From: Oscillospiraceae bacterium | GTDB taxonomy: Bacteria > Bacillota > Clostridia > Oscillospirales > Ruminococcaceae | Length of the DNA stretch: 10,753 nt | NCBI GenBank assembly: GCA_031281115.1 | Contig: JAITFV010000261.1 | Location: forward strand, 1 to 10,753 | Direction of reading: 5' to 3' | Shown here: one piece after another, positions 847-10,356 of the stretch | Position numbering within the stretch: position 1 is the stretch's first letter | Layout of the letters: each line of letters begins with the position of its first letter | Made by a program: the position numbers and the translations under genes | The notes under the pieces: generated by a model | Told to the model about the DNA's origin: nothing | The model's database searches: none | The model's input: only the letters and a program-made list of their open reading frames with translations

Positions 847-914
847 CCGTCGGTTTGTGCTTCAAAAACGAACTCGGCATAAATCCTCCTCAAGAGGAAG
901 GAATGGTTATAATT

Positions 915-1853
915 ATGGATAAAAGCGCAAAAATATTCATAGCGGGACACAGAGGTATGGTCGGTTCAGCAATTGTACGTGTTCTGGAGAAAACCGGCTA
1001 CGCTAATATCATAAAGAAAACACGCCGCGAACTTGATTTAACCCGGCAAAAAGATGTAGAAGATTTTTTCGCCGAGGAAAAACCCGACTGCGTATTCTTA
1101 GCAGCAGCGACAGTAGGCGGAATATTGGCTAACATGAAAAATCAGGCAAGTTTTCTGACAGAAAACTTGCAAATTCAATGTAATGTCATTAACAGCGCAT
1201 ATTTAAGTAAAGTCAAGAAGCTTCTCTTCCTCGGCTCATCCTGTATATTCCCGAAGGAAGCGGAGCAGCCGATTTCCGAATCCGCGCTGCTTACAGGTTT
1301 GCTTGAGCCTACTAACGAAGGCTACGCCATCGCAAAAATCGCGGGATTAAAACTTTGCGAATATTATAACAGGCAGCAGGGTGCAGATTTTATAAGTCTC
1401 ATGCCTTGTAACTTATATGGTTATAATGATAATTTTGACCTTGAAAATTCTCACTTTCTGCCCGCTCTTATTCGTAAATTCTATGAAGCAAAAAAAATTA
1501 ACGCAGACGCAGTTACTGTTTGGGGAACCGGAAAAGTATACAGAGAGCTGCTCTTTGTCGATGATTTGGCAAGAGCCTGCGTTTTCGTTATGAATAATTA
1601 TTCGGGAGCAGACTTTTTGAATGCGGGATACGGCGAAGACTTCACTATCGCGGAGTACGCCGGGATGGTGAAAAAAATATCCGGCTTTAAAGGTGATGTT
1701 ATTTATGACACCTCTAAGCCCGACGGAATGTTCAGAAAAATCATGGATTCAAGTAAACTCCGGAGACTCGGTTGGAAGCCGGAGGTTGAACTCGGGGAAG
1801 GAATTAAACTCACATATGATTGGTACGCAGCATGGCGGCAAAAAGACAACTGA
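915..1853 (+). CDS. fcl: GDP-L-fucose synthase
   Basis: This is an NADP-dependent 3,5-epimerase/4-reductase of the short-chain dehydrogenase family. It converts GDP-4-keto-6-deoxymannose to GDP-L-fucose in the cytosol for glycan synthesis. The 312-residue length is normal. The dinucleotide motif GHRGMVGSA lies near residues 10-18, the SSCIFP segment carries the catalytic Ser near 109, and the YxxxK pair is in EGYAIAKIAG near 136-140. The conserved KPDG segment lies near the C-terminus. I chose the ATG at 915 because the SD-like AGAGGAAGG (893-901) is 13 nt upstream. The in-frame ATG at 903 abuts that SD, and longer TTG-initiated forms add no family sequence. The partner GMD dehydratase is not in the window. 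The pyrophosphorylase that supplies GDP-mannose is the next gene. Confidence 0.9.
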   Translation: MDKSAKIFIAGHRGMVGSAIVRVLEKTGYANIIKKTRRELDLTRQKDVEDFFAEEKPDCVFLAAATVGGILANMKNQASFLTENLQIQCNVINSAYLSKVKKLLFLGSSCIFPKEAEQPISESALLTGLLEPTNEGYAIAKIAGLKLCEYYNRQQGADFISLMPCNLYGYNDNFDLENSHFLPALIRKFYEAKKINADAVTVWGTGKVYRELLFVDDLARACVFVMNNYSGADFLNAGYGEDFTIAEYAGMVKKISGFKGDVIYDTSKPDGMFRKIMDSSKLRRLGWKPEVELGEGIKLTYDWYAAWRQKDN

Positions 1854-1880
1854 AGCGGGTCGCTTCGTTTTAAAACGAAG
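1852..1880. repeat. Overlapping alternative hairpins between fcl and manC
   Basis: GAAGCG (1852-1857) pairs with CGCTTC (1861-1866). CTTCGTTTTAAAACGAAG (1863-1880) is a perfect 18-nt palindrome. Both use CTTC at 1863-1866, so the two structures exclude each other. The first stem begins inside the fcl stop codon. They sit just upstream of the duplicated leader of manC. A regulatory role is possible but unproven. Confidence 0.5.
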
Positions 1881-1881
1881 T

Positions 1882-1904
1882 TATTCTCTGTTGGTGAAGA
1901 AAGG
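1882..1904 (+). repeat. Duplicated 5' leader, copy 2
   Basis: This is identical over 23 nt to 256-278 and holds the same position relative to the downstream start codon, here the manC ATG at 1916. The AAGAAAGG end is about 11 nt from the ATG. The frame that reads ILCW-stop across the core is closed by a TAA at 1871-1873 here, so the conserved element is not the tail of a shared peptide. Confidence 0.6.
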
Positions 1905-1915
1905 TTTAAGAAAAT

Positions 1916-3217
1916 ATGAATGTAGTTCTTTTATCGGGCGGTTCCGGCAAGCGATTATGGCCGTTATCGAACGAAATGCAGTCAAAGCAGTTTTTAAAGC
2001 TGCTTAAAAATGACGATGATGTTTACGAATCAATGGTTCAGAGGGTCGTGCGGCAACTGACATCGGTTCACAAAAAAGCAAATCTGTTCGTGTCGTGTAA
2101 TATGAGTCAGGAAGATATTGTGAAACGGCAGCTCGGAGCTATTGAAACAATCTTAGAGCCGTCAAGAAGAAATACTTTTCCGGCTATCGCGCTTGCCGCA
2201 GCGTATTTACATTTCGAGAAAAATCTCGACAGAGAGCAGGTTTTTGTAGTTTGCCCGATTGACGTTTTCGCCGAGAGCGAATACTTCGAGCTTTTAAAAA
2301 ATACCGCAGAATTAGTCGGGAGTAATCAGCATAACATAGGTTTAATGGGTGCGCTCCCCTCCTATCCCTCCGCAAAGTACGGGTACATCCTCAGAAGCGG
2401 CGGCGTTGTTTCAGGATTTGTTGAAAAGCCGCCCGAGAGCAAAGCGGCAGAATTAATAGCCGGCGGAGCGTTATGGAACTGCGGCGTTTTTGCGCTTAAA
2501 ATCGGTTATGTTCTCGATATTGTTAAAAAATATATTTACTCCGACAGCTTTGAAAGCGTTTTTGAGCAGTACGGCGAACTGCCGAAAATTAGTTTTGACT
2601 ACGAAGTGGTTGAAAAAGAAGCGTCCATCGGCGCGGTTACTTACGGCGGTATATGGAAAGACCTCGGAACATGGAATACCCTCACCGAGGAAATGAATGA
2701 TAGCAATGTCGGCAGCGTACTCGTTTCCGAAAACTGCAAAGACACTCATGTACTCAATATGCTGAACACCCCCGTTATTGTGCAGGATATTAATGACGCT
2801 GTAATTGTTGCGAGCCATGACGGAATTTTAGTAAGCAGCAAACAAGGCAGCTCTTTTATGAAGCCGCTCGCCGAACAGATTTCTCAGCGCCCTATGTATG
2901 AACAGCGGCGCTGGGGCGATTACCGCGTGTTGGACTATAAGCAAAACGCAGGAAATTCTTCGCTTGTTAAGCGTATACGCATAGATGCGGGACAAACCAT
3001 GACCCGCAAATCCTGCGGCAGCCGCAGTGAGGTTTGGGTAGTTGTAAGCGGGAAAGGGATTTTAACAGTAGACGCTGTTGACTCTGTTGTTTCTACCGGC
3101 AGCATGGCAGAAATACCGCAAAATGCTGAGTATTCATTTTTAGCCGCAACAGAGCTGGAACTTATTGAAATACAATTCGGAGCAGGTGCGCTTGAGGAAG
3201 AAGAGGCTGTATTATAG
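1916..3217 (+). CDS. manC: Mannose-1-phosphate guanylyltransferase with degenerate cupin domain
   Basis: This cytosolic enzyme makes GDP-mannose from mannose-1-phosphate and GTP and feeds the GDP-fucose route of the preceding gene. The N-terminal nucleotidyltransferase domain (about residues 1-260) opens with LSGGSGKRLWPLS at 6-18 and SKQFLKLL just after, the nucleotide-binding signature of the family. FVEKP (near 168) and WNCGVF are further family blocks. Residues from about 330 to 425 form a cupin like the C-terminal isomerase half of ManC/AlgA, starting at RRWGDYRVLD. The usual histidine-rich metal site before the R-x-E-x-W block reads TRKSCGSRSEVW and has no histidine. The later proline-histidine position is also changed (PQNAEYSF). 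Phosphomannose isomerase activity is therefore doubtful, while guanylyltransferase function looks intact. At 433 residues it is slightly short for bifunctional forms. Confidence 0.88.
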   Translation: MNVVLLSGGSGKRLWPLSNEMQSKQFLKLLKNDDDVYESMVQRVVRQLTSVHKKANLFVSCNMSQEDIVKRQLGAIETILEPSRRNTFPAIALAAAYLHFEKNLDREQVFVVCPIDVFAESEYFELLKNTAELVGSNQHNIGLMGALPSYPSAKYGYILRSGGVVSGFVEKPPESKAAELIAGGALWNCGVFALKIGYVLDIVKKYIYSDSFESVFEQYGELPKISFDYEVVEKEASIGAVTYGGIWKDLGTWNTLTEEMNDSNVGSVLVSENCKDTHVLNMLNTPVIVQDINDAVIVASHDGILVSSKQGSSFMKPLAEQISQRPMYEQRRWGDYRVLDYKQNAGNSSLVKRIRIDAGQTMTRKSCGSRSEVWVVVSGKGILTVDAVDSVVSTGSMAEIPQNAEYSFLAATELELIEIQFGAGALEEEEAVL

Positions 3218-3222
3218 CCGCG

Positions 3223-3235
3223 CCCCACAAGCCGC
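3223..3235. repeat. 13-nt direct repeat flanking the HTH locus, left copy
   Basis: CCCCACAAGCCGC here is identical to 3770-3782. A GCGC run precedes both copies, separated by one extra base in the right copy. The pair brackets the HTH gene with its operators and terminators. It may mark a cassette boundary or be a dispersed GC-rich repeat. Confidence 0.45.
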
Positions 3236-3240
3236 AGAGA

Positions 3241-3275
3241 TTGAGAATGCCTTGCATTTTCAACATTTTAATTTT
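3241..3275 (+). terminator. Intrinsic terminator after manC
   Basis: TTGAGAATGC (3241-3250) pairs with GCATTTTCAA (3254-3263) with one G-U pair and a CTT loop. T-rich sequence CATTTTAATTTTC follows. It lies 24 nt past the manC stop and probably ends the sugar-nucleotide transcript. Confidence 0.65.
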
Positions 3276-3348
3276 CTTCTTCTTCGTTAGATTCGTCAGC
3301 AATCAATGCTTGTTCAGCTTTACGTTGAACCAGTTTATAGGATTTTAG
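3268..3348 (-). pseudogene. Remnant of a small leftward ORF without a usable start
   Basis: On the minus strand an open frame of 26 codons runs from 3348 to a TAA at 3270-3268. It reads like real protein, with a lysine/glutamine-rich start (YKLVQRKAEQALIADE) and an acidic end (SNEEEEN). A GGAGG ribosome binding site (3360-3356) and a perfect-consensus promoter (3406-3378) lie directly upstream at normal distances. The frame has no ATG, GTG or nearby TTG start, and an in-frame TAA sits at 3351-3349. An ATG at 3362-3360 is in another frame and stops after five codons. A lost start codon or a small indel would explain this. I recognise no family. It is a decayed or mis-sequenced small gene, or a chance frame. 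Confidence 0.35.
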
Positions 3349-3377
3349 TTAAATACCTCCATAAGTTTTATATTTCT

Positions 3378-3406
3378 ATTATATGGGAATATCCCATATT
3401 TGTCAA
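3378..3406 (-). promoter_or_regulatory. Consensus leftward promoter with palindromic operator in its spacer
   Basis: Read on the minus strand, TTGACA (3406-3401), a 17-bp spacer and TATAAT (3383-3378) give a perfect sigma-A promoter. The palindrome ATATGGGAATATCCCATAT (3381-3399) fills the spacer and part of the -10 box. A protein bound there would block RNA polymerase. The adjacent XRE gene is the natural candidate repressor because its own start region repeats the TATGGG/CCCATA half-sites. Confidence 0.75.
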
Positions 3407-3411
3407 TAGAT

Positions 3412-3447
3412 AAATCCCCCATAGTGTATAATAACTATGGGGGATTT
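3412..3447 (+). promoter_or_regulatory. Operator-like inverted repeat and -10 box of the HTH gene
   Basis: AAATCCCCCATAG (3412-3424) and CTATGGGGGATTT (3435-3447) form a perfect 13-bp inverted repeat around a 10-nt centre that contains TATAAT (3427-3432). No good -35 lies 17 nt upstream; the closest TTGTCA is 21 nt away. The right arm ends 2 nt before the ATG and contains the only SD-like bases (GGGGGA). This fits autoregulation by the encoded HTH protein, either at DNA or as an RNA hairpin hiding the start. Confidence 0.6.
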
Positions 3448-3449
3448 GC

Positions 3450-3677
3450 ATGAGTGAAAAAATACGAGGGCTTCGAGAAGATAAAGATTTGACGCAGAAG
3501 CAGTTAGCGCGGTATTTAAACGTAGACCAATCTACGTATTCCGACTATGAAACCGGCAATTTAAACATTCCGATTGCTGTGCTTGTAAAATTGTCGATTT
3601 TTTATGAAACAAGTGTTGATTATCTTTTAGATTTAACCGATAATACGAATCCATACAAACGCAAGAGCGGGGTTTAA
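3450..3677 (+). CDS. Small XRE-family HTH transcriptional regulator
   Basis: This 75-residue protein is almost only a Cro/CI-type helix-turn-helix domain. LTQKQLARYLNVDQSTYSDYE at about residues 14-34 covers helices 2 and 3, followed by the usual helix with PIAVLVKLSIFYETSVDYLLD at 40-60. The basic tail NPYKRKSG has no dimerisation or sensor domain. Proteins of this size act as dimeric DNA-binding repressors in phage, toxin-antitoxin and housekeeping loci. The ATG at 3450 lies directly behind a long inverted repeat, and a second palindrome with the same TATGGG half-sites occupies the divergent leftward promoter, so it probably represses both directions. Its regulated partner on the left appears decayed. 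No integrase, toxin or other mobile gene is visible nearby. Confidence 0.85.
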   Translation: MSEKIRGLREDKDLTQKQLARYLNVDQSTYSDYETGNLNIPIAVLVKLSIFYETSVDYLLDLTDNTNPYKRKSGV

Positions 3678-3695
3678 ATATCCCGCTGTTTTTCA
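3666..3695 (+). terminator. Terminator overlapping the HTH gene stop
   Basis: AGCGGG (3666-3671) pairs with CCCGCT (3682-3687), and GTTTTTCATTTT follows. The TAA stop of the HTH gene (3675-3677) lies in the loop. The 6-bp stem is short but GC-rich. Confidence 0.5.
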
Positions 3696-3802: not shown

Positions 3803-3839
3803 CTGTTAAAATTAAAAGGTTTGGACTTATCCAAACCTT
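3803..3839 (-). terminator. pst operon terminator overlapping the last stop codon
   Basis: On the minus strand AAGGTTTGGA (3839-3830) pairs with TCCAAACCTT (3825-3816) around a TAAG loop, and TTAATTTTAAC follows. The TAA of the last ATPase gene (3829-3827) is the loop, so the final codons (GRFG) encode the ascending arm of the stem. Confidence 0.8.
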
Positions 3840-4582
3840 CCTCTTATATAATCGCTCGTTCTCTGGTCTTTCGGCGTTGAAAAGACCTCTATATTTGCGC
3901 CTTCTTCTATAAGTTTCCCCATCAGCATAAACGCCACACGGTCAGAAATGCGCGCCGCCTGTTGCGTATTGTGCGGGGAAATAATAATTGTGAACTGCTC
4001 TTTAAGCTCAACAAGCGATTCTTCAATCTTCGCGGTTGAAATCGGGTCAAGCCCCGAACAAGGTCGGTCAAGCAATACGACCTCAGGTTCCAAAGCCAGC
4101 ACCCGTGCAAGGCAAAGCCGCTGCTGCTGCCCGCCCGAAAGGCTCATTGCGGGAATCTTCAGCCTATCTTTAACCTCGTCCCATAGTGCTGCCTGAATCA
4201 GCGCCTTCTCCGCTATTTCGGAGAGGGCTTTTTTGCTTCTCTTACGGGCAAGGCGCGGCCCGTAAGTAATATTATCGTAAATCGACATGGGGAGCGGCGT
4301 AGGTACATCGAAGACAATTCCCACCCGGCGCCGAAGCTCCGTCACGCTTGAATGTTCGGAAAAAATACTTTGCCCGTCCAATAGTATTTCACCCTCGATT
4401 TTTACACCGGGAGTAAGGTCGCACAAACGGTTCAGCGTACGCAGCAGCGTCGTAATCCCGCTGTTCGCAGGTCCGATAATTGACATAATCTCATTTGCGG
4501 GAATCCGCAGATTTAGATTCTCGATAGCAAGCTTCTCGCCGTAATAAAAATTCAATTTATTTATATTAATCTTATCAGGCAT
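3827..4582 (-). CDS. pstB: PstB-like ATPase with degenerate nucleotide site
   Basis: This 251-residue member of the PstB phosphate-importer ATPase family is the last gene of the pst operon. The overall sequence is clearly PstB (SIYDNITYGP, QQQRLCLARVLAL, DYIRGRFG end), but catalytic positions are changed. Walker A reads GPANSGITT at 37-45 with Ile43 where lysine should be. The Q-loop reads VFDVP with Asp92 for Gln. Walker B reads LLDRP with Arg173 for the catalytic Glu. The signature LSGGQ (148-152), the D-loop SGLD and the H-loop His204 are kept. It probably cannot hydrolyse ATP alone and would supply the signature motif to the other PstB. The TAAGGAG that ends pstA gives its SD, 6 nt before the ATG. 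An intact reading frame with conserved signature argues against a pseudogene. Confidence 0.9.
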   Translation of the reverse strand: MPDKININKLNFYYGEKLAIENLNLRIPANEIMSIIGPANSGITTLLRTLNRLCDLTPGVKIEGEILLDGQSIFSEHSSVTELRRRVGIVFDVPTPLPMSIYDNITYGPRLARKRSKKALSEIAEKALIQAALWDEVKDRLKIPAMSLSGGQQQRLCLARVLALEPEVVLLDRPCSGLDPISTAKIEESLVELKEQFTIIISPHNTQQAARISDRVAFMLMGKLIEEGANIEVFSTPKDQRTSDYIRGRFG

Positions 4583-4591
4583 ATTCTCTCC

Positions 4592-5428
4592 TTACCTGCC
4601 TTTCGCTACAAAGCGGTTAATAAGCATATTCGCGACTACATTTATCAGGAATACCAAAATAATCAGCACTGCTGCCGTTCCGTAAGCGTTTCTTGTGGAA
4701 AGCCCTTCCATAACAAGCGTATAAAAATGCACAGCCATCGTCTTTGACGAATCCATGACAGAACGCGGCATAGCAAGTTCGACGCCTGCTGTCATAATGA
4801 GCGCGGCTGTTTCCGCAACGCACCGCCCGACACTTAAAATCAGCCCGTTCGCAATACCTCGAATCGCAGACGGAACTACAGCCCTGCGTATAGTCTGCCA
4901 CTTCGTCCCGCCGAGTGAATAGCTCACCTCGCGGTAAGTCACGGGGACAGAGCGGATTGCCTCCTCGGAAGTTCGGATAAGTGTCGGCAGAATCATAATC
5001 GCAACAGTCAACCCGCCCGAGAGAATTGACCAATCTAACCCCAGCACGTCAACGAAGAATATGAACCCGAAAAGCCCGTAAATAATTGAGGGTATTCCTG
5101 CGAGCGATTCGGTGCAGAAGCGGATAATACGGGTAATAATCCCGCCCCGCGTATATTCGGCTAAGTAAAACGCAGTCCCGACGCCGAAAGGCATCGCAAC
5201 CAAAACAGCGAGCAGCGTTACCGACAGCGTACCGACAATCGGCGAAGCGATTCCGCCCGCCCGTCCCGAACGGCGCGGAACTTCCGTAAGGAAACTCCAG
5301 TTAATTACCGATAACCCGCGGTAAAGAATAAAAACTATAATAAATAAAAGCACGGCAATAACTAACAATGCAACTGCCCAAATCAAGCCCTTGGCGAATT
5401 TCTGGGCAGTACGCGGATTCACTCTCAT
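4592..5428 (-). CDS. pstA: Phosphate ABC transporter permease PstA
   Basis: This is an integral membrane subunit of the high-affinity phosphate importer that pairs with PstC to form the channel. The 278 residues include an N-terminal membrane helix (about 12-36) and a set of further hydrophobic segments consistent with six helices. The cytoplasmic coupling (EAA-like) loop SYSLGGTKWQTIRRAVVPSAIRG lies around 170-193. The GRCVAET segment after it matches the conserved Arg/Glu helix of PstA. The ATG directly abuts the pstC stop with no spacer, and the SD-like AGAAGG lies inside the end of pstC, so translation is likely coupled. Its own stop overlaps the SD of the last ATPase gene. Confidence 0.93.
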   Translation of the reverse strand: MRVNPRTAQKFAKGLIWAVALLVIAVLLFIIVFILYRGLSVINWSFLTEVPRRSGRAGGIASPIVGTLSVTLLAVLVAMPFGVGTAFYLAEYTRGGIITRIIRFCTESLAGIPSIIYGLFGFIFFVDVLGLDWSILSGGLTVAIMILPTLIRTSEEAIRSVPVTYREVSYSLGGTKWQTIRRAVVPSAIRGIANGLILSVGRCVAETAALIMTAGVELAMPRSVMDSSKTMAVHFYTLVMEGLSTRNAYGTAAVLIILVFLINVVANMLINRFVAKGR

Positions 5429-6283
5429 CTACTTAACCTTCTTTCGGGTAATAATCTGCGCGGTAATGTTCAGAATCATGATAATTACGAACAAAACTAT
5501 ACCGGTCGCGAAAAGTGCCTGCTGATGCTGACCGGAGGCGTAGCTCATTTCTATACCTATATTAGTTGTGAGGGTTCTCACAGAGTCTAAAATTGACTCC
5601 GGTAAAGCCACGGCGTTTCCGAGTACCATAATAACCACCATCGTTTCACCGACAGCGCGTCCGATGCCTAAAATAACCCCGGCAACTATGCCTGACTTTG
5701 CAGCGGGGAGCTGAACCCGCAGAATCGTCTGCCAGTGCGTCATGCCAAGCGCCAACGCCCCTTCTTTATATGTACGGGGTTGTGCTATAATCGAAACCTC
5801 GGAAATACTTATAATAGTGGGCAGAATCATAATTCCGAGAACAACAGAACCCGCAAGTATGCTCATTCCCAGCCCCCCAAAATGATTGCTGATTGCAGGG
5901 ACAATGAAAATCATACCCCAAAATCCGTACACAACAGAGGGAATCCCTGCCAGCAGTTGAATCGCAGGTCTGAACACGGTTCTCATCGGTGCCGGCGCGA
6001 ATTCAGCCATAAATATACTGCAGCAGATTCCCACCGGAATTCCGATTAATGCCGCGCCGAGCGTAACCGAAACAGTGCCGACAATCATCGGGAAAATCCC
6101 GAACTGCCCTTGCCCGGGCGACCAGTTCATACCGAAGGTAAAGCTGAACAAACCGACTTCGGCAATCAGCGGCATTCCGCTGACGAAGATAAAAACAGTA
6201 ATTATTACAAGCGCGGATATAGTCGATAAGGCAAGCGTAAAGAATACCCCGCCCGATAATTTCTCTCTAATCTTCTTCATCAT
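5429..6283 (-). CDS. pstC: Phosphate ABC transporter permease PstC
   Basis: This is the second permease of the phosphate importer. It has 284 residues with an N-terminal membrane helix (about 14-36) and several further hydrophobic spans. The coupling loop ALALGMTHWQTILRVQLPAAKSG lies near 176-198. GRAVGET near 207-213 keeps the Arg and Glu known to matter in E. coli PstC. The gene overlaps the end of pstS by 17 nt. Two successive ATGs (6283 and 6280) follow GGGGAAGGG. The second has the better SD spacing, so the true start may be 6280. Tight packing points to a single polycistronic transcript. Confidence 0.93.
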   Translation of the reverse strand: MMKKIREKLSGGVFFTLALSTISALVIITVFIFVSGMPLIAEVGLFSFTFGMNWSPGQGQFGIFPMIVGTVSVTLGAALIGIPVGICCSIFMAEFAPAPMRTVFRPAIQLLAGIPSVVYGFWGMIFIVPAISNHFGGLGMSILAGSVVLGIMILPTIISISEVSIIAQPRTYKEGALALGMTHWQTILRVQLPAAKSGIVAGVILGIGRAVGETMVVIMVLGNAVALPESILDSVRTLTTNIGIEMSYASGQHQQALFATGIVLFVIIMILNITAQIITRKKVK

Positions 6284-7121
6284 TTACCCTTCCCCTGATG
6301 GAAATTAAACCTTCAGCCATTAGTATTTCCTGCCCTTCATCGGAAAGAACAAAATCAATAAAGTGCCGCGTCGGGCTTCCCGGTTCCGGTTCTTTCGCAG
6401 AAACAAATAAAAACGCTCTGAAAAGCTCATACTCGCCGCTCAGAACATTTTTCTGTGTCGGCGCAACGCCGCCTAAACTCAAAGCCTTAACATCGCTCAT
6501 GCCGGGCTGCGGTTCTGCAAGCCCGAGCGAAATAAAGCCAATCGTGTCCCGGTTTCCCGAAACCAATTGTCTGATTGCGCCGTTAGAATTTTGCACAACC
6601 GCTCTCTGCGATATAAACTCGTCTGCCATAACAAGCTCCTGAAACGCGCCCCGCGTTCCCGAACCTTCTTCACGGGCGATGATGTGAATTCTCGCGTCAT
6701 GCCCGCCGACTTCGCTCCAGTTGGTTATACTGCGGGTATAAATATCACGAACTTGCTGTATTGATAAATTATCGACAGGGTTGTCCGGGTGGATGATAAT
6801 CGCCAATCCGTCTAAGGCAATCTCAACTGACCATAAATCCTGCTCTTCCTCCGTCAGAGAGCGCGACAGCATACCGATTTCAGCGATTTCATTCCGCACA
6901 GCCCTTATTCCTGCCGAAGAACCTCCGCCTTGAATGCCGACAATGTGGTTCGGGTACAGAAATCTATACTCTTCAACTAAAATCTCAACATACGGATGAA
7001 CCGAGGTAGAACCGGCGGCAATCACGCGGGTGGTTTTTTCTTCACTGCTGCCGTTCTCTGCACATGCAGAAAGCACAGACATCGAAATAATAACTATTGC
7101 TGCAATTATCAATCGTTTCAT
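6267..7121 (-). CDS. pstS: Phosphate-binding lipoprotein PstS
   Basis: This extracellular substrate-binding subunit captures phosphate and delivers it to PstCA. The 284-residue precursor has a lysine/arginine start, a hydrophobic signal segment and a lipobox LSAC with Cys20 as the lipidated residue, so it is membrane-anchored in a Gram-positive envelope. Pocket motifs are visible: AGSTSVHP (36-43), GGGSSAGI (65-72) and REEGSGTRGAF (150-160), matching the Arg, Ser, Gly and Thr ligands of the family. The usual ADIG aspartate is glutamate here (IAEIGMLSR, Glu81). The ATG at 7121 lies 3 nt after the stop of the upstream ATPase with only a weak SD, which suggests translational coupling. pstS is second in the operon, not first as is usual. 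Confidence 0.93.
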   Translation of the reverse strand: MKRLIIAAIVIISMSVLSACAENGSSEEKTTRVIAAGSTSVHPYVEILVEEYRFLYPNHIVGIQGGGSSAGIRAVRNEIAEIGMLSRSLTEEEQDLWSVEIALDGLAIIIHPDNPVDNLSIQQVRDIYTRSITNWSEVGGHDARIHIIAREEGSGTRGAFQELVMADEFISQRAVVQNSNGAIRQLVSGNRDTIGFISLGLAEPQPGMSDVKALSLGGVAPTQKNVLSGEYELFRAFLFVSAKEPEPGSPTRHFIDFVLSDEGQEILMAEGLISIRGRVNDEED

Positions 7122-7124
7122 ATT

Positions 7125-7907
7125 CTATCCGAATCTTCCTGTAATATAATCTTCTGTTCTTTTATCTTTAGGGTTGGAAAACATAAGCGAAGTAGCGGAG
7201 TACTCGACTAACCGACCGATTTTCTTATCGTCAATCATCATGAACATGGACATATCCGACACTCGAATCGCCTGCTCCATATTGTGCGTGACTATTATAA
7301 TCGTGTATTTTTTCGCAAGCTCCAGCATAAGCCCTTCAATTTTCATGGTTGATTCAGGGTCAAGAGCGGAACAGGACTCATCCATTAATATAACCTCGGG
7401 GTTCACCGCCAAAGCGCGAGCGATGCAAAGCCGTTGCTGCGCTCCCGCTGACAGCTCCTGCGCCGGCTTTTTTAATATATCTTTTACTTCGTCCCACAGC
7501 GCGACCTGCGTCAGGCAGGTTTCAGTTATTTCAGCAAGTTTTTCTCTGCTTTTTGTGCCGTGACTCTTTGGTCCCATGATGATATTTTCATAAATACTCA
7601 CCGGGAATACATTAGGTTTTTGAAAAACCATGCCGATTTTTTTTCTCACATCTACAACATAGGTGTTTTTCCCGTAAATCGGCTTCTTATCAAGAAAAGC
7701 CTCGCCTTCAATGCGGGCAGACGGGATTAAATCATTCATGCGGTTAAAAAGCCGCAAAAGCGAAGATTTCCCGCAGCCCGACGGCCCGATAATCGCCGTA
7801 ATCGCCTTCTCCGGAATCCCCGCCGTTATATCCCCCAACGCATGAAAACTTCCGTAATAAAGGTTTAAATCCTTTGTTTTGATTTTACTTTTCCGGGATT
7901 TCCCCAT
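7125..7907 (-). CDS. pstB: PstB-like ATPase with intact Walker motifs and degenerate signature
   Basis: This is a 260-residue ATPase of the phosphate importer and the first gene of the operon. Walker [10 protein letters not shown] (41-49), Q-loop VFQKP (Gln96), Walker B ILMDES (Asp176, Glu177), D-loop SALD and H-loop THN (His208) are all intact. The signature that should read LSGGQ is LSAGA (152-156), with Ala for the third-position Gly and Ala for Gln; the Ser and the fourth-position Gly remain. This is the mirror image of the defects in the last gene of the operon. Together they fit a heterodimer in which this protein binds and hydrolyses ATP against the other subunit's LSGGQ. The ATG at 7907 has only a weak SD (GGCGGT, about 12 nt upstream). 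It ends 3 nt before pstS. Confidence 0.92.
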
Positions 7908-9546: not shown

Positions 9547-10356
9547 ATGAGAAATAGCATTATATTGTTGCTTATTGTGGTATTTCTGCTTACAGCTTGC
9601 GGCAACACCGAGTCGGAAACATTCCCCGAACCAGAGCCCGAGTTTATGCAAACAGATGAAACGTCCGAATTTGATATTCCCGACTTCATAACTATTAAAA
9701 ACGAACAAATAAGCACGAGATTAAAAATTCTTGATTTAAATAACATGGAACTCACTGATGTTGATATAGAACCCTTAAAATATATGATTAATTTAACAGA
9801 GCTGTATTTATGGGATAATAAAATCTATGATATAACCCCGCTTAGCGGATTGACGGAGTTAACGGTTTTAAATCTGGGAGGAAATGAAATCGCTGATATA
9901 ACTCCGATAAAAGAATTAATAAACTTGCAAATCCTGTATTTATGGGGAAATAAAATAAGGAATATATCTGCGCTTGAAAATTTAGAAAATTTAACAGAAT
10001 TACGAATGCAAAACAATCAAATCCGTGATATAACCCCGCTCAGCGGATTAAAGGATTTAACCGAATTGTGGTTACACATAAATATAATCAGTGATTTAAC
10101 TCCACTTGTCGATTTAACAAACTTAACAACTTTATATTTGAGAACAAATCAAATCCGTGATATAACGCCACTCAACGGATTAATAAATTTAGAAGTGTTA
10201 TACATACAGTGTAATAATGTTATTGACATATCGCCTCTTGTAGGATTAACAAATTTAAAAGATTTGCGTTTAAACGGGAATTCTATAAGAGACAAGAGCC
10301 CCTTAGACGAACTGGTAAATCTTTCGGTAACCATATTTAATTGCGATTGTCATTAG
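9547..10356 (+). CDS. Leucine-rich-repeat surface lipoprotein
   Basis: This 269-residue predicted lipoprotein has a signal segment ending in the lipobox LLTAC (Cys18), then an acidic linker rich in Glu and Pro (about 19-45). The rest is a ladder of 22-residue leucine-rich repeats of the SDS22/internalin kind with consensus LTxLxLxxNxIxDITPLxGLxN. I count eight regular units from about residue 83, one looser unit before them and a truncated last unit ending NCDCH. Such domains bind proteins or glycans; the ligand cannot be inferred. No LPXTG, transmembrane tail or catalytic domain is present. Two terminal cysteines might cap the solenoid. Several units are nearly identical in DNA, so unit number may vary by recombination. 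The gene has its own promoter, and its stop lies in a long inverted repeat. Confidence 0.88.
   Translation: MRNSIILLLIVVFLLTACGNTESETFPEPEPEFMQTDETSEFDIPDFITIKNEQISTRLKILDLNNMELTDVDIEPLKYMINLTELYLWDNKIYDITPLSGLTELTVLNLGGNEIADITPIKELINLQILYLWGNKIRNISALENLENLTELRMQNNQIRDITPLSGLKDLTELWLHINIISDLTPLVDLTNLTTLYLRTNQIRDITPLNGLINLEVLYIQCNNVIDISPLVGLTNLKDLRLNGNSIRDKSPLDELVNLSVTIFNCDCH
9823..10185 (+). repeat. Near-identical DNA repeats inside the LRR gene
   Basis: A segment encoding I(R/Y)DITPL(S/N)G recurs at 9823, 10021 and 10153, spaced 198 and 132 nt, exact multiples of the 66-nt LRR unit. ATCCGTGATATAAC is shared by the last two, and the first two share GATATAACCCCGCT. In-frame gain or loss of units by recombination is therefore possible. 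Confidence 0.7.

Follow-up and report, generated by a model that had tools for sequence, protein, structure and literature searches.

The window analysed here, a stretch of 10,753 nucleotides from an Oscillospiraceae bacterium (contig JAITFV010000261.1), carries on its minus strand, from 7907 to 3827, an operon of five genes in the order B1-PstS-PstC-PstA-B2, in which B1 and B2 are two different ATPases related to PstB. The operon very probably encodes a gut-bacterial phosphate importer, PstS-PstC-PstA-B1-B2, in which the two ATPases would be obligate heterodimer partners, one of their ATP sites being canonical and the other degenerate. An earlier note on this DNA had proposed that the pair assembles these two kinds of site, an interpretation that is supported by the reciprocity of the motif changes, by their conservation, and by the selection acting on both genes.

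Motifs of the Two ATPases and Organization of the Operon

In dimers of ATP-binding cassette (ABC) proteins, each ATP site combines the Walker A and Walker B motifs of one subunit with the signature of the other. B1, a PstB-type ATPase of 260 residues (7125-7907, minus strand), has an intact Walker A (K47), Q-loop (Q96), Walker B (D176-E177), and H-loop (H208) but a degenerate signature, LSAGA, at residues 152-156. B2, a PstB-lineage ATPase of 251 residues (3827-4582, minus strand), has an intact LSGGQ at 148-152, together with D172 and H204, but carries I43 for the Walker A lysine, D92 for the Q-loop glutamine, and R173 for the Walker B glutamate. These residue-by-residue assignments were made in the earlier note, and all of its positions and numbers hold on re-checking; that both ATPase frames are intact is borne out by the gene calls, as it is for every frame of the operon. 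By the composite-site rule, B1-B2 gives one fully canonical site and one lacking the Lys, the Gln, the Glu, and the signature. Among the possible pairings of these two subunits, only the heterodimer has a canonical site, since both sites would have a broken signature in a B1 homodimer and would be missing the Lys and the Glu in a B2 homodimer. The earlier note had called the second site fully degenerate, which is right for these four elements but goes too far for the rest, as B2 still has the H-loop His and the aromatic residues of the A-loop. This His is preceded in B2 by Pro (PHN instead of THN), and the D-loop reads SGLDP in B2 versus SALDP in B1.

The three genes between the ATPases, all on the minus strand, exceed the curated cut-offs of their families: the PstS-type binding protein (6267-7121) scores 215 bits against 206.6 for TIGR02136, the PstC permease (5429-6283) 293.1 bits against 196.45 for TIGR02138, and the PstA permease (4592-5428), which is also assigned by tree, 276.2 bits against 193.45 for TIGR00974. 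These scores place the operon in the Pst importer family. The genes are closely packed, with a gap of 3 base pairs (bp) between B1 and PstS, an overlap of 17 bp between PstS and PstC, 0 bp between PstC and PstA, and a gap of 9 bp between PstA and B2. With the PstB model TIGR00972 (cut-off 343.2 bits), B1 scores above the threshold at 352.8 bits, and B2, at 338.8 bits, lies 4.4 bits under it; B2 is therefore named PstB-lineage rather than filed as a PstB equivalog. Neither subunit has the full ATPase motif set expected of a PstB, B1 being without SGGQ and B2 without the Lys, Gln, and Glu. We infer that the substrate is phosphate from the families of PstS, PstC, and PstA and from the presence of PhoU after B2 in 9 of 20 loci.

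Conservation of the Reciprocal Pattern

The homologue lists were cut from the top of a ranking by score and could therefore miss less common forms; they comprise the best 120 of 7979 hits for B2 and the best 120 of 8000 for B1, the latter reduced to 119 by exclusion of the window's own protein. All 120 B2 homologues lack the Lys, Gln, and Glu, and all 120 have LSGGQ. Position 43 is Ile in 97, Thr in 18, and Val in 5; position 92 is Asp in 88 and Glu in 32; and position 173 is Arg in every one. Conversely, the Lys, Gln, Asp-Glu, and His are each present in 119 of 119 listed B1 homologues, none of which has SGGQ, the first Gly of the signature being substituted in all of them. Orthologues with canonical residues restored, which the earlier note had named as evidence that would count against its reading, were found in 0 of the 120 listed B2 and 0 of the 119 listed B1 homologues. 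The co-occurrence of the changes across species, which the note had suggested examining, applies to the reciprocal loss, which recurs in these lists, but not to LSAGA itself, which is one among many B1 signatures; the constant feature is the missing first Gly. Reciprocal loss is present in 15 of 15 complete operons (window, L044-L049, L172-L177, L210, and L212).

A control was provided by loci L063-L141, which contain 88 PstB-like open reading frames, 76 with all motifs and 12 degenerate. The 12 form exactly six adjacent complementary pairs, and no lone degenerate PstB occurs among the 88; at L098, both members of an adjacent pstB pair have intact motifs. The addition of 10 genome-derived PstBs to the 76 gave an intact set of 86, in which the count of 86/86 intact is partly by construction (degenerate pairs having been removed by motif), the fair count being 76 intact plus 12 paired-degenerate out of 88. 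The D-loop is SALDP in 83 of these 86 intact PstBs versus SGLDP or TGLDP in all 120 listed B2 homologues.

The ratio of nonsynonymous to synonymous substitution rates (dN/dS), estimated pairwise by the Nei-Gojobori method from unsaturated dS only, is 0.04-0.09 for B1 and 0.03-0.11 for B2, ratios made rough by the high dS (1.0-2.4 for both); comparisons with the window were saturated and gave no ratio in 3 of 6 cases for B1 and 2 of 6 for B2. The corresponding values are 0.05-0.12 for PstA and PstC, 0.12-0.18 for PstS, and 0.02-0.04 for the canonical PstB of the same genomes. Purifying selection on both ATPases, with dN/dS no higher than 0.11, is thus borne out. AlphaFold predicts confident PstB folds for both, with a mean predicted local distance difference test score of 93.7 for B2 and 92.8 for B1. 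The solved structures nearest to both models are those of Escherichia coli PstSCAB (9k3s, 9k3x), with TM-scores of 0.87-0.97 and 51-52% identity to the PstSCAB entries.

Distribution among Genomes

The searches covered 60 relatives, 394 genomes of the order, and samples of the family, a second family, and a small class within the phylum. In the 394-genome scan, a gap in score separated the B2 orthologues (at least 429.9 bits) from the canonical PstBs (at most 353.2 bits), and the lowest-scoring B2 accepted in later scans had 419.2 bits. Among 35 other genomes of the genus (within the search of 60 relatives), 7 had the B2 type, as did 8 of the 394 in the order sample and 2 of the 247 in the family sample (the window's own being counted in both), 5 of 18 genomes of the second family, and 3 of 4 genomes of the small class. 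The occurrence of B2 is patchy. When 398 genomes of the phylum were scanned with a mixed profile (A3), the scores did not separate B2 from the canonical type, and inspection of 29 new loci revealed 3 of the B2 type and 26 canonical ones. A tblastn search of plasmid records with the B2-side query from L086 returned 136 records, each below 60% identity.

When all scans are pooled, B2 is present in 20 genomes, 18 of which also have B1, which lends indirect support to their mutual assembly. The 15 complete operons all have the order B1-S-C-A-B2, with extra DNA between genes in L045 and L174. In G061, G925, and G1029 (the genome of L062), B1 is on a separate contig and is again without SGGQ (LAIGR, LLPGQ, and LTPGQ, respectively); since in G925 both B1 and B2 lie beside contig ends, the separation there may be a mere assembly break.

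Some of these loci have features of their own. At L045 (relative G026), around 870 bases are inserted between pstA and B2 (2810-3680), and a spacer that appears rich in repeats by eye lies between pstS and pstC (5446-5760). At L062, B2-phoU stands beside unrelated genes, and at L178, pstA-B2 stands beside genes that look phage-like by eye, B1-pstS-pstC being on another contig in both cases. Two B1-type proteins, P0283 and P0307, come from metagenome-assembled genomes labelled Treponema and Defluviitaleaceae, which may reflect transfer or misbinning.

Complementary Pairs in Other Phyla

A species-genome collection was scanned with the B2 alignment, and the best 80 loci among the matches listed contained at least six outside the Bacillota with adjacent complementary pstB pairs: L073 (a planctomycete), L074 (WOR-1), L075 (Elusimicrobia), L086 (Aminicenantes), L097 (Ignavibacteriae), and L103 (Deltaproteobacteria). 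In all six, the B2-side subunit retains the Lys, the Glu, and [LM]SGGQ, Ala or Ser taking the place of the Q-loop Gln and Asn that of the H-loop His, and its B1-side neighbour retains the Lys, Gln, Asp-Glu, and His, with the signatures LSAEQ, LSLEA, LSLEQ (twice), LTGEQ, and LTEEQ. Among the best 120 of 7993 hits to this B2-side set, 119 show every element of this pattern; in the remaining one, Gln replaces the Glu. Intermediates (the Lys lost together with His to Asn, or the reverse) numbered 0 among the 240 listed B2-side proteins.

A quick PstB tree was made with the motif columns removed and with branch support from the Shimodaira-Hasegawa-like approximate likelihood ratio test (SH-aLRT), no bootstrap being used. 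The other-phyla B2-side subunits and the B2 type of the window fall on the same side of a branch supported at SH-aLRT 99, the six other-phyla subunits forming their own group with a value of only 66; B1 groups together (99), as does the B1-side set (88). A single origin of the B2 side is supported by this tree. The site that is degenerate in both types seems to have been lost by two different routes, since the window type keeps the His and has lost the Lys and Glu, whereas the other-phyla type keeps the Lys and Glu and has lost the His. The existence of related pairs in other phyla suggests a retained design rather than decay. In the PstA tree, the 15 operons group with L073, L086, and L103 (95), not with L074, L075, and L097; in the PstC tree, a joint group with the other-phyla loci is absent.

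Proposed Mechanism

In the proposed mechanism, B1 would contribute its Walker A, Walker B, Q-loop, and H-loop to the canonical, hydrolysing site, and B2 the LSGGQ opposite them. The degenerate site would bring the three altered elements of B2 (Walker A, Q-loop, and Walker B) up against the broken signature of B1; it would not hydrolyse ATP and would probably hardly bind it, and one ATP would presumably be hydrolysed per cycle.

A more tentative proposal, which we consider possible but doubtful, is that the degenerate site is a nucleotide-free structural lock in a type I importer running on one hydrolytic site. Arg173 and the acidic residue at position 92 would pair in place of the gamma-phosphate of ATP, B1 and B2 would remain closed on that side, and the other side alone would open in each cycle. 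The loss of the Q-loop Gln, which is shared, would have come first, and two sets of residues would then have disabled the site, one in the lineage of the window and one in the other phyla. The Arg173/residue-92 salt bridge is a guess based on conservation (Asp or Glu in 120/120 and Arg in 120/120 of the best 120 listed).

Several observations weigh against the obligate heterodimer or its generality. H204 is retained in B2, where a wholly dead site would have no need of it. The homologue lists are ranked by score and were built with profiles that include the motifs, and the 80 scanned loci were themselves selected by a B2 profile. G003 and G561 (82% and 79% complete) have B2, no B1 having been found in them, and in both the contig breaks off at or within pstA, immediately upstream of B2; in G040 (90% complete), B1 lies beside a contig end, and a search for B2 found none. 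In the PstB tree, B1 and the other-phyla B1-side set are not resolved as sisters, and the canonical PstBs L092 and L136 fall beside B1 (SH-aLRT 82 and 87), so the loss of the signature may have occurred more than once. Finally, the genome encodes a canonical PstB (contig C259), which could in principle also bind the permeases of this operon.

PhoU, the Canonical Pst System, and Alternative Explanations

The gene phoU follows B2 directly in 9 of the 20 loci, and the contig of L178 ends at that position; in 5 of the 6 other-phyla loci, PhoU comes next after the B1-side gene. The position of phoU after B2, along with the retention of every catalytic residue in B1, might suggest that B1 is a working homodimer despite its signature and that B2 stands outside the motor as a regulatory subunit that does not hydrolyse ATP and to which PhoU, for instance, might dock. 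This explanation is improbable: the absence of the first signature Gly from all listed B1 proteins would weaken both sites of such a homodimer, LSGGQ would be needlessly retained in all listed B2 proteins, and the reciprocity would go unexplained. In the window, a gene for a 75-residue helix-turn-helix protein (XRE-like by eye) lies downstream of B2 (3450-3677, plus strand), where nine related loci have phoU. The genome of the window has a second PhoU gene, far from any pst gene (C35; L214 2079-2702); it was considered as the displaced partner of the operon and rejected, as the PhoU tree groups it with the PhoU of the canonical operon and not with the B2-adjacent PhoUs.

On contig C259, the same genome carries a canonical pstS-C-A-B-phoU operon, with a response regulator identified by eye. 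A third complete pstB pairing with these permeases had been put forward in the earlier note as evidence that would speak against the pair; a third complete pstB does exist, but it sits in its own operon with its own permeases. The presence of a canonical PstB in this genome and in several relatives would also allow B1 and B2 each to act as a partner and modulator of the canonical PstB from the second pst operon. We regard this as less probable still, given that no third PstB was found at E 1e-60 in the pair-bearing relatives G006 and G016 (86% and 88% complete, in which one may be missed) and that the PstA proteins of the 15 operons cluster by themselves (SH-aLRT 99), as do the PstC proteins (100).

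Decay, in which both genes would be degenerating duplicates with accidental motif losses, can hardly be entertained: although the second Pst system could relax selection, the open frames, the low dN/dS, the confident folds, and the identical replacement, Arg173, in all listed B2 homologues argue against it, and the specialisation suggested in the earlier note is favoured by frames, dN/dS, and conservation.

Significance and Neighbouring Genes

Whether two working ATP sites are required by binding-protein-dependent importers has been debated on the basis of engineered mutants. Importers in which one site has been permanently lost seem to exist in two chemical versions and in several phyla, and the canonical Pst system present in the same genome in most cases would permit a direct comparison between a one-site and a two-site motor within one transporter family. 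Members of both types automatically receive the name "phosphate ABC transporter ATP-binding protein (PstB)", which masks parts that are not equivalent.

Elsewhere in the window, a ribosomal protein L10 leader (Rfam RF00557; 8067-8250) precedes rplJ-rplL, divergent from the pst operon; the gene at 9547-10356 (plus strand) encodes a leucine-rich-repeat protein whose start looks by eye like that of a lipoprotein, with repeats spaced 66 or 132 bases apart; and genes resembling those for GDP-fucose synthase and mannose-1-phosphate guanylyltransferase, both below the curated cut-offs, occupy 855-3217 (plus strand).

Comparison with Known Systems

The E. coli PstSCAB importer (9k3s, 9k3x, and 9k3y; TIGR00972) has the same subunits as the operon of the window. 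Its entries contain two chains of one PstB sequence (4 chains in two entries, 2 in one), hence a homodimer; the window operon differs in having two different PstBs, with one site degenerate. Enterococcus faecalis has tandem PstB1 and PstB2 in one pst operon, with non-equivalent functions, and, according to the part of the source covered, both have intact motifs and no degenerate site, unlike B1 and B2 (PMC12096839).

Among other importers, RbsA and NupO of Bacillus subtilis have one degenerate ATP site but are type II importers with two nucleotide-binding domains (NBDs) in one polypeptide, unlike the separate B1 and B2; the same source models PstBA and PstBB together and, in the text covered, does not call this pair degenerate (PMC11466899). 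In the peptide importer of E. coli, DppD and DppF are two different ATPase subunits, each opposite one permease; within the covered portion of the paper, both are competent for ATP binding and hydrolysis within the complete transporter, unlike what is predicted for B1 and B2 (PMC12136057). The earlier note knew of no phosphate importer with such ATPases, and a search of open-licence papers agrees: no report of a degenerate PstB was found in it, subscription papers and preprints lying outside this scope.

The asymmetric heterodimers of the TAP, TM287/288, and Pdr5 type are exporters in which NBD and transmembrane domain share one chain. B1 and B2 share with them the reciprocal loss of NBD motifs and signature, and in this respect the likeness drawn in the earlier note appears sound; it does not extend to an exporter with a fused transmembrane domain, the window having separate PstC, PstA, and PstS. 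The closest likeness is to Pdr5, which has one canonical and one degenerate site by reciprocal motif loss: according to the part of the paper covered, its degenerate site has Cys for the Lys, Asn for the Glu, and Tyr for the His, and the partner signature, LNVEQ, is close to the LSLEQ of the other-phyla B1-side subunits (PMC7756269). Pdr5 and TM287/288, as far as the sources covered describe them, are exporters of other families, whereas B1 and B2 are distinct chains that would serve a type I importer equipped with a binding protein. As judged from its motifs, the B1/B2 importer is one that would work like the asymmetric exporters and is not a member of their families.

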